From Herminiimonas contaminans (lineage in GTDB: Bacteria; Pseudomonadota; Gammaproteobacteria; Burkholderiales; Burkholderiaceae_D), in assembly GCF_015645465.1 (NCBI RefSeq), contig NZ_JADOEL010000002.1:372001-436000 (forward strand): a DNA stretch of 64,000 nucleotides, in the 5' to 3' direction. Position numbers and translations under genes: made by a program. Positions 45,488 to 49,745 of the stretch are shown here, piece after piece. Position 1 is the first letter of the stretch. Each line of letters opens with the position of its first letter. The notes under the pieces are model-generated. The model saw only the letters and a list, made by a program, of their open reading frames with translations. It did not search any database and was not told the DNA's origin.

Positions 45488-46300
45488 ATGAAACTCGCAT
45501 CTTTTCTGGCCATGACTTTATTGGCGGCCGGAATCAACTCCGCAGCGGCGCAAGACCTGGTGCTGGCCATCAATGAAGGTGTGACATATCAGGAAGGCGG
45601 ACCAGCCAGCGAACGTTACAAACCACTGTTGGCGTTACTCTCCAAAGAGCTCAAGCAAAACGTAAAGTTGCAAAATGTGGACAAATACGCGGTATTTGAA
45701 AAAGGCCTGGCCGAAGGAAAATACGACCTCGCCTTCATCCATCCGGCTCACATCGGTTTGCAGGCGGTCAAAAAGAATGGCTATGAAGGCCTGGTCACCG
45801 CCAAAGGCTTTACCGACTACCGTGCACGCGTACTGGTAGCGCAAGCGTCACCTCTGAAAACCCTGCAAGACCTGCGCGGCAAAAAAATAGGCGTACCGTC
45901 GGTCGAATCGATCACCACCGTGATGTTCACCGCCAACCTGCACGAATTGCGCTTCACCAATCCGGAAAAAACCTACACCCCGACCCGCTATCAGGACGCA
46001 GTGCCGTTCATGATCGATAACGGCTTTGTCGATGCCGGTGTTACTGGTTCGGCCGGTGTCGCCAAGGCCTGGACTGCCAAAGGCGGTCGCATCCTGGCGG
46101 AGACCAAACCCATCCCTATAAAGCAATTCCTGGCGTCGAAGAAACTGAGCGAATCTGACCGCGAAAAAGTCAAAACCCTGTTGCTGACTTTGCCGGACAG
46201 TGAGGCTGGTCGCACTGCCCTGTCCCGCATCGGCATGAGCGGCTTTGTGCCGTGGAATGCCGCAGTGATGGATGAAGCGACCGCACGTCTCGGCCTCTAA
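45488..46300 (+). CDS. PhnD-like phosphate/phosphonate-type binding protein
   Basis: A 270-residue exported binding protein. The signal peptide ends after SAAAQ (about residue 22). The PhnD/PtxB family pattern is clear: NEGVTYQEGG, ERYKPLLALLSKELKQNV, YDLAFIHPAHIGLQAVKKNGYEGLV, and GKKIGVPSVESITT. No ABC permease or ATPase is near, so it either docks to a distant transporter or serves as a sensor. The ligand may be an oxyanion or another small anion. Confidence 0.82.
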   Translation: MKLASFLAMTLLAAGINSAAAQDLVLAINEGVTYQEGGPASERYKPLLALLSKELKQNVKLQNVDKYAVFEKGLAEGKYDLAFIHPAHIGLQAVKKNGYEGLVTAKGFTDYRARVLVAQASPLKTLQDLRGKKIGVPSVESITTVMFTANLHELRFTNPEKTYTPTRYQDAVPFMIDNGFVDAGVTGSAGVAKAWTAKGGRILAETKPIPIKQFLASKKLSESDREKVKTLLLTLPDSEAGRTALSRIGMSGFVPWNAAVMDEATARLGL

Positions 46301-46341
46301 CAACCAAACCGGGCTGCATACTCATGCAGTCCGTCAGCTTT

Positions 46342-47250
46342 TCAAACTGCGCGTAAAGCTACGCGCTTCTGCAGCAAATCCAGCCAGCGTTCACCGCAAT
46401 TCTCGTTACTGATACACAGCGCGTAATCAGTCACCGTGCGCGCCGCCCGTTCCAGCAACTGGATGTCGGCTTCATGCTGGCGCGCCACATGCGGATCTTC
46501 GAGGAATAGCACGCGCCTACACTGATCCCGGTCAAGTATAAGTTCAGCGATCTGTGCATCGCCACCCATAGGCCCGCTCAGGTAAGGCTTGATCCAGTTG
46601 CGCCCTGCTTCCTCGCCTTTGATCTTTTGCGCCAGCTTGTTGAGCAGGCTGCCAGTGGTACCGGTCGCACAGCGGAAACCAAACTGATCGAGCAAATCAA
46701 AATGACGCTCGGCGATTTCCAGCATGCGGCCTTTCATCGCGTCGTGCGCAATCATCGCGATGCCTTCATGCTGCAGGTCGAAGGTCGCGTCCAGCTCCGG
46801 ATTCGGTGCTGCGCCTGTCGCGATGGATTCCAGCTCCAGCCATTCCTGCGCACCAGCCAGCGTCGACAGGAAAGGTTTGCCGTGAATCACGCATTGGCGT
46901 TTCAGCGCGACCGCTTCCGGAAAGATGGAGGACGGATCCACCGGGTCCATCAAATACATCACGGCATCCAGTCTACGCGTCGGATCGGTATCCACCACGC
47001 GTGACACCAGCTTCATCAAGCCGCCGTGACGACCATATGGAAAGCGTTCTATGTGCGGGTAATTCTTCAGCAGGCCCAGATGATCCATCGCATCCAATGT
47101 GCGTCCGACGACGATCAGTTGCGGCTGCAAATGCTGTTCGATCGCGACACGGCTGCCATTGAGCAAACGGGCCAAGACGGAATTCGGGGCATCCTGATGG
47201 GTACGACTAGTGGCTAAACCGATGCGGAATTGATGCGGGGAAACAGACAT
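46342..47250 (-). CDS. mgsA: Two-domain methylglyoxal synthase
   Basis: A 302-residue protein, about twice the usual 150. The C-terminal half (about 150-300) holds the methylglyoxal synthase motifs: MIAHDAMKGRM, CATGTTGSLLNKL, YLSGPMGGDAQIAELI and FLEDPH. It should convert dihydroxyacetone phosphate to methylglyoxal. The N-terminal half is a second MGS-like domain (IGLATSRT, VVGRTLDAM, PYGRHGGLMKLV, LMDPVDPSSIFPEAVAL) that lacks the catalytic acid after the GG pair, so it is probably regulatory or inactive. The start at 47250 has a weak ribosome binding site; a TTG at 47289 is the alternative. It lies behind an SOS box. Confidence 0.85.
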   Translation of the reverse strand: MSVSPHQFRIGLATSRTHQDAPNSVLARLLNGSRVAIEQHLQPQLIVVGRTLDAMDHLGLLKNYPHIERFPYGRHGGLMKLVSRVVDTDPTRRLDAVMYLMDPVDPSSIFPEAVALKRQCVIHGKPFLSTLAGAQEWLELESIATGAAPNPELDATFDLQHEGIAMIAHDAMKGRMLEIAERHFDLLDQFGFRCATGTTGSLLNKLAQKIKGEEAGRNWIKPYLSGPMGGDAQIAELILDRDQCRRVLFLEDPHVARQHEADIQLLERAARTVTDYALCISNENCGERWLDLLQKRVALRAV

Positions 47251-47366
47251 AGGGATAAAAATGAAGACGGGCAATATTGCACCGCACAAACTTTATCATG
47301 GAGACAAGTTTTATTCATCTTTCGTACAACAAGGCTGAAAATATTTAACAGACTTGATGTGCGCTT

Positions 47367-47417
47367 TTGATTTTTGCCGACGCCGATGTTATACTGTGTT
47401 TTTATACAGTATCAACC
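47367..47417. promoter_or_regulatory. LexA/SOS box over divergent promoters
   Basis: TACTGTGTTTTTATACAGTA at 47392-47411 contains CTGT-N8-ACAG, the LexA consensus of beta- and gammaproteobacteria, with the extended TA ends. On the plus strand it overlaps the -10 of TTGATT (47367-47372), 17 bp, TATACT (47390-47395). On the minus strand TTGATA (47417-47412), 16 bp, TATAAC (47395-47390) points at the methylglyoxal synthase gene. LexA binding would block both. Confidence 0.72.
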
Positions 47418-47476
47418 TTTTTCGTCGGGTCGCTCCCCCTCCAAAGTTTTATTGTGCGACCCGACATTTCTTTTTT
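47402..47476 (+). ncRNA. Predicted SOS-controlled small RNA, about 75 nt
   Basis: A plus-strand promoter with a LexA box (start point near 47402) is followed within 75 bases by a strong intrinsic terminator. The terminator has a perfect 10-bp stem GTCGGGTCGC (47424-47433) with its complement (47456-47465) and then ATTTCTTTTTT to 47476. No start codon lies in between. The 22-base terminator loop starts with TCCCCCTCC, which is complementary to Shine-Dalgarno sequences. This is a sequence-based prediction. The remaining gap 47477-47560 shows nothing firm. Confidence 0.55.
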
Positions 47477-47560
47477 AGGCCTGTGGTTTATAGCTGTGCA
47501 TCAAGCGCAGCCAAGTACGCAAACACCGCACCTCCAAGCCAGGCATTTTCCAACAGCGTT

Positions 47561-48028
47561 TTAGTTTTTCTCCGGCATCGCAGATGAGTGATGGCTGGAG
47601 ATCAGCCATGCACGGCCATCCCATTTGTACGTGTAGGTATAACGCGCCTTCACTTCCGAGCCATCATCAAACTTGAAGGTATACAAGCCGGAATCGCTGG
47701 CGCTATTGCAGTTCACCTCTATCGTGCGGCTGTTGATGGTGCCAACCGGCTTGTGCTCCATGAAGTGTTTGAAGTAATCAATTTTTTCTTCGGCCGTCAG
47801 GCGCGGCTTGTTCGACAAAGTCGGCAGCAGTATGGATTTGCTGGCGTAGTTGGCGACCACTTTTTGCGGATCACCGGTTTGCAGCGTGGCGTTCCAGCGA
47901 TCGAACAAGGAAGCGATCTGTTTTTCGGAAGTGGCGTGACACACTTCAGACTTTTCAGACTTGGCATAAACGTGACCAGCAAAAGCGAAAGCAAGCATAG
48001 ATACAACTACAGTACGCGGGAAAAACAT
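47561..48028 (-). CDS. Exported NTF2-like (SgcJ/DUF4440-type) protein
   Basis: A 155-residue protein from the ATG at 48028, with a signal peptide ending near HVYA (residue 22). The mature part has the SgcJ/EcaC-type NTF2-like pattern: EKQIASLFDRWNATLQTGDPQKVVANYASKSILLPTLSN, and a final sheet YTYTYKWDGRAWLISSHHSS. It is probably periplasmic. A strong AGGAGGTGA lies 60 bases upstream in the same frame, so a longer form starting near 48088 cannot be excluded. The function is unknown. Confidence 0.8.
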   Translation of the reverse strand: MFFPRTVVVSMLAFAFAGHVYAKSEKSEVCHATSEKQIASLFDRWNATLQTGDPQKVVANYASKSILLPTLSNKPRLTAEEKIDYFKHFMEHKPVGTINSRTIEVNCNSASDSGLYTFKFDDGSEVKARYTYTYKWDGRAWLISSHHSSAMPEKN

Positions 48029-48209
48029 AGAAATAGAACCTTTCTTTAAAGAATAAAAAAATGAAACCTGTTCAAATGAAATCGTCACCTCCTGACTTCG
48101 GCAGTTCTGCCGTTTTGTGAAAAAATATTATGGAGTCCGGGTCGTTCAGTTTTTTGGAGTCTTTTCTGCTTTTTCGCCTGCTTGGTCACCGGAATCACTT
48201 ATAAGTTGC

Positions 48210-48248
48210 ACAAGTCGGACTTGTCCTGACCGCCACTAATCCGGTCAG
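48210..48248. other. Two palindromes upstream of the TPP riboswitch
   Basis: ACAAGTC-G-GACTTGT (48210-48224) is a perfect 7-1-7 palindrome, and CTGACCG/CGGTCAG (48226-48232 and 48242-48248) is an inverted repeat next to it. The promoter of cytX must lie near here, so they may be operator sites. No clear -35/-10 pair is seen. Confidence 0.35.
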
Positions 48249-48311
48249 CTACCCGCAGAGGCTTGCCTATAAACGGTTTTTGGCTCAAAGTAGCGACCTG
48301 TCTGAAAACTT

Positions 48312-48388
48312 GGCTCGGGGTCCTGCGCATAGCGTGGGTGAGAGATACCCGTTGAACCTGATTGAGGTAATCCTCGCGCAGGAAAGCA
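48312..48388 (+). promoter_or_regulatory. TPP (thiamin pyrophosphate) riboswitch
   Basis: The THI-box pattern is complete: CTCGGGGTCC, then GGGTGAGAGATACCC, GTTGAACCTGATTGAGGTAAT and CCTCGCGCAGGAAAG. It lies about 65 bases before the cytX start. With bound TPP the family represses the downstream gene, here a thiamin-precursor transporter. Confidence 0.96.
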
Positions 48389-48452
48389 CATAATCTATCG
48401 CCGCTGCCGCGGCATCGAATCCGCTGACCTGCCATCTATTTTTTGAAAGACC

Positions 48453-49745
48453 ATGATGGCTTTACCTAACGCTCCTGCGGCCAGCAGCAATGCCGCTTTC
48501 ACTCCCATTCCTGCCAGCGAACGCGTGTTTTCCTTCCGCGATCATGCCGCGCTCTGGTTCAGTCTCGGTGTCGGCCTGCTGGTCATGCAAATCGGCGCTT
48601 TCCTTGGCACTGCACTTGGCACACAGACCGCACTGTTCGCCATCATCGTCGGCTCTGTGCTCGGCGCTGCCTTGCTGGCGCTGGTCGCCTATATCGGTTT
48701 TGAACGCGGCCTGTCTAGCCCGGTGCTGATGTGTCAGACGCTGGGCACTTCATTCGCCAAATTGCCGGTGGTCCTGAACGTAGTGCAATTGATAGGCTGG
48801 AGCGCATTCGAGCTGGTCGTCATGCGCGACGGCACGACGGCATTGATCAAGGACATCACCGGCCTCGATACGATCTGGCTGCCGTATGTCACTGCCTTGT
48901 TCTGGGGCTTGCTGCTGGTCGGCCTGGCGACCGGTTCGATGATAGGACTGGTGCGCTGGTTCGTCGGTCGCTTCGGCTTGCCGCTGGTGATCCTGTCGCT
49001 GATCTGGCTGACCTACCAATTCGTCCTGAAAGCACAGGCACAAGGCCTGGACGCAATCTGGCATCGCGCTGGTGACGGTTCGATGAGCACGCTGGCAGGC
49101 ATAGACCTGGTGATGGCGATGCCGGTGTCGTGGTTGCCGCTGGTGGCTGACTTCGCGCGCTACGGCAAGGCGGGTGCCACAACATTCCGTGGCACCTGGC
49201 TCGGCTTCGCGGTGGCCAATATCTGGTGCCACGCTTTGGGCGTACTGATCGTCAGCACTTCCAATCCAGGTGCCGACCTGATGACCACCCTGCTGCTGGC
49301 ACAAGGCGGCCTGATTGCACTCGGCCTGATCCTGATCGATGAAATGGATAATGCTTACGGTGACGTGTATTCCGGCTCGGTCTCGCTGAACTTCCTGCAC
49401 GGCAAATTCACGATACGTTTCTGGGGCATCACGCTCGCACTGGTTGCAACTGCCTGCGCGCTGTTCCTGCCCATGCATGGCCTCGAACCATTCCTGCTGA
49501 CCCTGAGCTCGGTGTTTGTGCCTTTGTTCGGCGTGGTGATTTCGCAATTGGCATTGAAGGGCGAAGCCACGGATAAAGGTGTGAACGTAGTGCCGGTCGC
49601 GATCTGGCTGGTCGGCATTGCCGCATTCCATCTATGCCCTATGATGTGGCCGGTAGTCGGCTCGGCCTTGCCCGCACTGGCGATTACGCTGCTGCTGGGC
49701 AGTATTTATCGCATCGCGCGCCGCCCCGCATTGCAATCTGCATAA
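48453..49745 (+). CDS. cytX: CytX-type hydroxymethylpyrimidine transporter
   Basis: A 430-residue permease of the nucleobase:cation symporter-1 family with about 12 membrane segments. The N-terminal RVFSFRDHAALWFSLGVGLLVMQIGAFLGTALGTQTA and the SWLPLVADFARYGK segment fit CytX. The TPP riboswitch directly upstream ties it to thiamin metabolism, and CytX is the known TPP-regulated member, proposed to import hydroxymethylpyrimidine. Two ATGs (48453, 48456) are possible. Confidence 0.92.
   Translation: MMALPNAPAASSNAAFTPIPASERVFSFRDHAALWFSLGVGLLVMQIGAFLGTALGTQTALFAIIVGSVLGAALLALVAYIGFERGLSSPVLMCQTLGTSFAKLPVVLNVVQLIGWSAFELVVMRDGTTALIKDITGLDTIWLPYVTALFWGLLLVGLATGSMIGLVRWFVGRFGLPLVILSLIWLTYQFVLKAQAQGLDAIWHRAGDGSMSTLAGIDLVMAMPVSWLPLVADFARYGKAGATTFRGTWLGFAVANIWCHALGVLIVSTSNPGADLMTTLLLAQGGLIALGLILIDEMDNAYGDVYSGSVSLNFLHGKFTIRFWGITLALVATACALFLPMHGLEPFLLTLSSVFVPLFGVVISQLALKGEATDKGVNVVPVAIWLVGIAAFHLCPMMWPVVGSALPALAITLLLGSIYRIARRPALQSA

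Follow-up and report, generated by a model that had tools for sequence, protein, structure and literature searches.

What does a LexA box control when the transcript that would start at it meets a hairpin, rather than a protein-coding gene, within a few dozen bases? The SOS response has been described mostly in terms of proteins. At positions 47367-47476 of the window (the whole stretch of DNA analysed, 64,000 nucleotides (nt) of contig NZ_JADOEL010000002.1 of Herminiimonas contaminans, in which all coordinates are given), a LexA (SOS) box overlaps a promoter and is followed by a hairpin with a T-rich tail. The reading of this element as a LexA-controlled small RNA (sRNA) gene, with predicted expression and mechanism, is well supported by comparison with other genomes of the genus. 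The window's own genome is referred to as G000, and the parts of the element are as follows.

47367-47372, + strand: -35 element TTGATT, separated from the -10 element by a 17-nt spacer (promoter scan and 12-genome comparison)
47390-47395, + strand: -10 element TATACT, overlapping the LexA box
47392-47411, palindromic operator: LexA (SOS) box TACTGTGTTTTTATACAGTA, with the pattern TACTGT-N8-ACAGTA
47402-47476, + strand: predicted sRNA of about 75 nt, its start placed about 7 nt past the -10 element and its end within the T-tract
47424-47433, + strand: 5' arm of the hairpin, GTCGGGTCGC (fold and covariation)
47432-47442, + strand: GCTCCCCCTCC, the final two bases of the 5' arm and the start of the C-rich loop, invariant in eight genomes
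47456-47465, + strand: 3' arm of the hairpin, GCGACCCGAC (fold and covariation)
47466-47476, + strand: T-rich terminator tail ATTTCTTTTTT (read from the sequence)

The initial annotation of this DNA had placed a LexA site over the -10 element of a plus-strand promoter, followed within about 75 bases by a perfect 10-bp hairpin and a T-rich tail, and all of these are present in that arrangement. The gap between box and hairpin is 12 nt, and the perfect 10-bp stem encloses a loop of 22 nt that opens with TCCCCCTCC. The fold is more stable than expected (z = -5.5; none of 200 shuffles was equally stable). The annotation had also reported no start codon between promoter and hairpin, and a sequence scan of the predicted RNA in the window finds no ATG. 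Taken singly, some of the elements are weak. The short pattern CTGT-N8-ACAG occurs at two sites in the window where 0.77 are expected (21 of 100 shuffles reach two), and the promoter scan found two promoters in the window against 2.1 in shuffles. The hairpin is absent from the terminator-scan results because that scan accepts loops of 3-8 nt only. It is conservation together with covariation that provides the decisive support for the observation.

Conservation and covariation of the element

The genus was sampled with 13 Herminiimonas genomes, that of the window included. A DNA search of 60 relatives found the box and hairpin in eight congeners (the window's genome counted). Loops similar to that of the window occur in eight genomes (G000, G001, G002, G003, G006, G009, G010 and G011), and the loops of G005, G007, G008 and G012 are divergent. 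The downstream permease gene (48453-49745), which is found in 12 of the 13 congeners, served as a syntenic landmark. At the orthologous place, all 12 permease-bearing genomes have a CTGT-N8-ACAG box (that of G008 is one base off the stringent 20-mer) and a hairpin after it, with a gap of 11-13 nt in 10 genomes, 20 nt in G012 and 75 nt in G007. The G007 hairpin is a perfect terminator preceded by an extra stretch of about 60 nt, and the predicted SOS RNA of that genome would consequently be longer, at about 130 nt. The -10 element reads TATACT in 11 of the 12 (TATGCT in G008); the -35 element, 17 nt before it, is TTGATT in G000, G011 and G002 and GTGACT, GTGACA or ATGACG in the other nine. The initial annotation had named a lack of box and hairpin in close relatives as an outcome that would speak against it; when this comparison was run, both were found to be kept in every genome with the syntenic permease. 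A model search found no copy of the element in the thirteenth genome, G004, a fragmented assembly with no permease match. Two stringent boxes in G004 precede imuA-like and dinB-like frames (judged from translations).

The pattern TACTGT-N8-ACAGTA is found at four sites in G000 versus one for the reversed control, and at 44 versus eight over the 13 genomes. The other three G000 sites lie before imuA (twice) and an SRAP gene. The genome G005 has five other sites: at imuA, in a umuC-like polymerase region, at a FAN1-like nuclease, at a radical-SAM gene and beside an unassigned frame. Because boxes of the same type precede imuA, SRAP, umuC-like and FAN1-like genes, the box of the sRNA is taken as a LexA site, and the pattern is very likely the SOS box of the genus. 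Membership of the LexA regulon is further indicated by the position of the operator, which matches the genus box, lies over the promoter and is found at the corresponding position in all 12 genomes with the permease.

One other imuA locus deserves mention. In G009 (G009:C1:659000-664000, box at 2401), the imuA LexA box adjoins an IS110-type transposase gene, and CTGTGCAGTCCCCCTCC is found on the divergent side of this box at about the distance seen in the sRNA, with the hairpin absent. This motif may be due to chance or may be a degenerate second copy. As a second CCCCCTCC beside a LexA box it was set aside, since it has no hairpin.

The stem of the hairpin varies in sequence between species while its pairing is kept. 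Two stem positions have double-sided changes among the eight similar copies, and a covariance model trained on these eight recovers all 12, including the four divergent ones (E-values: 4e-9 to 5e-4). In the 12-copy model alignment (which leans to the model; a plain MAFFT alignment places the same arms together), 120 of 120 cells are paired and five of the 10 pairs are changed on both sides. Double-sided changes occur in 14 cells; shuffles give 4.1 such cells, and slid arms give 0-1 and lower pairing to 24.5-40.5%. This pattern fits selection on the hairpin rather than on one particular sequence.

The loop and its candidate targets

Across the eight similar genomes GCTCCCCCTCC is invariant, and the 3' half of the loop is variable. 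For comparison, of 172 fourfold codon sites in the permease gene, 15 show no change among seven of these eight genomes (G010, which has a split permease, was excluded; the figure for all genomes, 1 of 51, was not used, as the frame picked for G008 looked wrong). The invariant segment is complementary to GGAGGGGGA-type ribosome binding sites. The divergent loops read CTCCCCTCACATTTG in G007, GCTCCTCACAGTTTCAACT in G005 and a GCTCTTCACAGTTTC-type sequence in G008 and G012. The complementarity to ribosome binding sites that the initial annotation had ascribed to the loop is therefore borne out in part: CCUCC is present in eight of the 12 loops, CCCCUC in G007 and CUCCUC in G005, but G008 and G012 have only CUCUUC.

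Candidate targets were sought among GGRGGGG sites before an ATG in the eight genomes carrying the C5 loop; of 30 loci taken from the matches listed, 29 were inspected (the thirtieth repeats another), along with 18 further regions. Among the matches inspected, acs (acetate--CoA ligase) is found in all eight genomes, with GGAGGGGAC before its start, and no other gene was seen to recur in all of them. The acs leader pairs with the sRNA in eight of the eight genomes with the CCCCCTCC loop. Predicted loop-acs duplexes range from -16.2 to -22.2 kcal/mol in these eight and from -8.3 to -14.8 kcal/mol in the other four. The sequence GGAGGGG is present in 11 of 13 acs leaders of the genus and absent from the nine leaders examined outside it (15 were found). 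Only one of 53 starts in the window pairs as well as acs, a rank that is biased because acs came from a pattern search for such sites. Since site and loop do not change together, acs appears to be only a weak candidate target.

Within Herminiimonas, strong conservation upstream of acs reaches far past the ribosome binding site, and another regulatory element may lie there. A second start, GGAGGGGTGTATCTATG, recurs in four of the eight genomes (G000, G001, G002 and G009); the gene after it encodes what we take to be a branched-chain-permease-like protein. The cell division gene ftsZ was tried and rejected. Its duplex with the G000 loop has a predicted energy of -10.5 kcal/mol, against a median of -9.8 over the 53 window starts (G000 only), and ftsZ leaders have an AAGGA-type site in 11 of 13 genomes (in G008 and G012 an upstream start was taken). 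A role for ftsZ as a target thus seems unlikely.

Neighbouring genes and distribution of the element

Conservation of the intergenic region falls into two islands: the promoter, box and hairpin, and a promoter-like stretch before the thiamine pyrophosphate (TPP) riboswitch of the permease (eight of the 12 genomes aligned, in sets of five and three). In the same alignments, conservation drops on either side of the first island. A divergent methylglyoxal-synthase-like gene (NCBIfam NF003559) adjoins the element in four of the 12 genomes, the other eight have a same-strand substrate-binding-protein gene upstream, and an NTF2-like neighbour is present in three. A start-codon scan of the first 75 nt in the 12 genomes found no conserved coding sequence; nine are free of ATG, and three of these also lack GTG and TTG. 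Given the varying neighbours, and a conserved promoter-like stretch that belongs to the permease, the element looks like a separate sRNA gene.

Several features of the neighbourhood were recorded in passing. The TPP riboswitch (RF00059, 60 bits; 48306-48401, + strand) lies before the CytX-type permease (48453-49745), and a thiamine switch with a hydroxymethylpyrimidine transporter is an expected pairing. In G010 the permease is split into two reading frames (G010:C2:206636-207936). The NTF2-like protein (CaMKII_AD/SnoaL_3; 47561-48028, - strand) is encoded between the sRNA and the permease in three of the 12 genomes only, and so its gene was gained or lost at this place. On the other side, a 302-aa protein (46342-47250, - strand) matches methylglyoxal synthase (NF003559) in its C-terminal part, from residue 161; its first 160 residues match no Pfam or NCBIfam family at an E-value of 0.001.

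Rfam 15 covariance models run over 46200-48600 (E-values up to 5) gave no match except the TPP riboswitch. Two models of the element were used for searches of the family. The hairpin-only model R1 matched 13 of 392 family genomes at E-values of 0.05 or less, eight in the genus and five weakly outside it. These five (E-values: 0.0016-0.044) were rejected, as none of their loci has a CTGT-N8-ACAG box. The model R2, with box and hairpin, was run over 294 family genomes and, at E-values of 0.001 or less, had matches in 12 of the 13 Herminiimonas genomes and in none of the 281 others. An order-level scan of 399 genomes gave three matches: G000 and two weak, unlike ones (G731 and G566; E-values: 0.002 and 0.006), which do have a box, but with a hairpin that is short, dissimilar and located just ahead of a reading frame; they were not accepted as copies. 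The three model scans thus give no convincing copy outside Herminiimonas, although their stricter filters lose weak matches and may have missed distant relatives.

A loose pattern of box plus CCCCTCC was found in 22 of 392 family genomes, eight in the genus and 14 outside. The 14 outside matches, judged on the matched letters alone, have spacers unlike those of the genus and were mostly taken as chance or as ordinary SOS genes. Two sites in one other genus (G148:C1:2568403-2568436 and G211:C11:630097-630130) have the same LexA-like box with GCCCCTCC closely after it, and may be an unrelated conserved SOS site of their own.

Proposed model, alternatives and related RNAs

The element is probably a free-standing, LexA-repressed sRNA gene, and its product most likely a base-pairing sRNA that covers Shine-Dalgarno sequences. 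The proposed model, in which transcription, LexA binding, SOS induction, base-pairing with mRNA and target repression are all predicted steps, is as follows. In the undamaged cell, LexA bound to the box over the -10 element would block RNA polymerase. Upon damage LexA would be cleaved, and transcription would yield an RNA of about 75 nt, stopping at the intrinsic terminator that the RNA itself contains. The hairpin of this terminator would expose a large loop, the 5' half of which is C/U-rich and anti-Shine-Dalgarno in most species. The most likely partners of this loop are the ribosome binding sites of one or a few mRNAs that have a G-rich Shine-Dalgarno sequence; binding would lower the translation of these mRNAs during the SOS response, and Hfq or another chaperone would probably assist. 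A broader version, in which the RNA would be a genus-wide, trans-acting SOS translation brake with its loop a mobile anti-Shine-Dalgarno sequence silencing a group of mRNAs whose ribosome binding sites are rich in G, with acs as a possible member, seems to us evenly poised between right and wrong.

Several observations weigh against this model. The loops, at 15-22 nt across the genomes, are long for an intrinsic terminator. Termination may be leaky, as the T-tails are interrupted in several genomes (G001 and G006, with ACTTTCTTC, among them) and that of G005 is poor (CATCCTCTTCC). The CUCUUC of G008 and G012 would be a poor anti-Shine-Dalgarno sequence, and such a role may not be common to all species. 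The acs leaders of G005, G008 and G012 keep GGAGGGG despite the altered loops, and the pairing of a divergent loop is not improved by taking the acs leader of the same species (for G007, -10.0 with the G007 leader against -17.0 with the G000 leader). The search gave no target with a site that covaries with the loop. For the stem, further standard pair types are not above the shuffled level (6 versus 7.7), and the two doubly changed pairs of the eight-sequence set are reached by 310 of 500 shuffles.

Some of these points would suit other explanations. The RNA could be LexA-controlled and yet have a loop that binds a partner other than a ribosome binding site, as a sponge for another sRNA or as the ligand of an RNA-binding protein. 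This is rather unlikely: a common CUC start of the loops in place of a strict anti-Shine-Dalgarno sequence, the weak pairing of CUCUUCACAGUUUC of G008 and G012 with the one leader tested and the lack of a covarying mRNA target would all fit, but CCUCC in most loops, with CCCCUC or CUCCUC in two more, points to ribosome binding sites, and UC-rich anti-Shine-Dalgarno segments that repress translation are known in the NmsR RNAs of Neisseria (PMC5362039). Interrupted tails would also fit an SOS-controlled attenuator leader, in which a long transcript would run past a leaky hairpin and on through the TPP riboswitch to the CytX-type permease gene. In nine of the 12 genomes hairpin and permease are co-directional, the box lying 318-412 bp before the permease match with no gene seen between them. 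In G000, G011 and G002, however, an opposite-strand gene intervenes and the box is about 1 kb away; in the eight aligned genomes the second promoter-like island separates the hairpin from the riboswitch, and attenuation would not need an invariant C-rich loop. Such a leader is a still less probable explanation.

The remaining two explanations carry far less weight. The box could serve the divergent methylglyoxal-synthase-like gene or another minus-strand gene, with the hairpin an unrelated terminator. The operator is palindromic and the divergent gene of G000 starts about 140 bp away, but box and plus-strand promoter persist in the eight genomes where the methylglyoxal-synthase-like gene is not beside them, which makes this very improbable. 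The LexA-like palindrome and the terminator could also stand together by chance, which would agree with the lack of significance of CTGT-N8-ACAG alone in the window; this is contradicted by joint conservation in 12 of 12 genomes and by compensatory change, and is barely credible.

The preferred reading, a LexA-repressed, base-pairing sRNA, can be compared with several described RNAs. IstR is part of a toxin-antitoxin locus with tisB. IstR-2 of E. coli, named as a LexA-inhibited sRNA (PMC2527527), resembles the Herminiimonas RNA in being a small RNA under LexA control. Unlike IstR, the Herminiimonas RNA has no Rfam match and no shared reading frame in its transcript: no shared start codon, as for a TisB-like toxin frame, was found in the transcript in the 12 genomes (no search for toxin frames around the element was made). 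In function, the nearest case is DinR of Klebsiella, one of few such RNAs known, which is raised by DNA damage via LexA and pairs at a ribosome binding site (PMC10907235). Damage induction linked to LexA and pairing at ribosome binding sites, both predicted here, would be common to the two RNAs. Judging from the available text on DinR, the Herminiimonas RNA differs in having its own LexA-box promoter and in its relation to ftsZ, the DinR target, the start of which in G000 has no more than average pairing with the loop.

The sibling RNAs NmsRA and NmsRB of Neisseria are betaproteobacterial and lower translation through UC-rich anti-Shine-Dalgarno segments, one of them in a loop (PMC5362039), as proposed here. 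They differ in having three stem-loops and metabolic targets, and the accessible text states no link to LexA; the likeness is one of description only. The Caulobacter sRNA ChvR and other sRNAs are raised by mitomycin C, with no SOS box near their start sites according to the portion of the source available, and ChvR is under ChvI-ChvG (PMC6237742). The SIPHT study lists 113 computed sRNA candidates with putative LexA boxes from many species (PMC2527527). The Herminiimonas locus may be among them as an untested candidate; neither Herminiimonas nor Janthinobacterium is named in the main text as available. Beyond a reference to IstR, the accessible part of PMC8072944 has nothing on LexA-controlled sRNAs. 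No report of this Herminiimonas RNA was found by title or abstract start in the open-licence literature on SOS/LexA small RNAs and Herminiimonas sRNAs.

If the model is right, the SOS response of Herminiimonas would have a noncoding arm with its own operator, rather than an RNA that arises alongside a protein-coding SOS gene. An sRNA gene with a LexA box to itself, maintained through compensatory changes over the genus, would make a clean case that is open to testing, and the single loop would give direct access to the question of which translation ceases upon DNA damage. The bacterial DNA-damage response would gain a layer of RNA control of a kind seldom observed.
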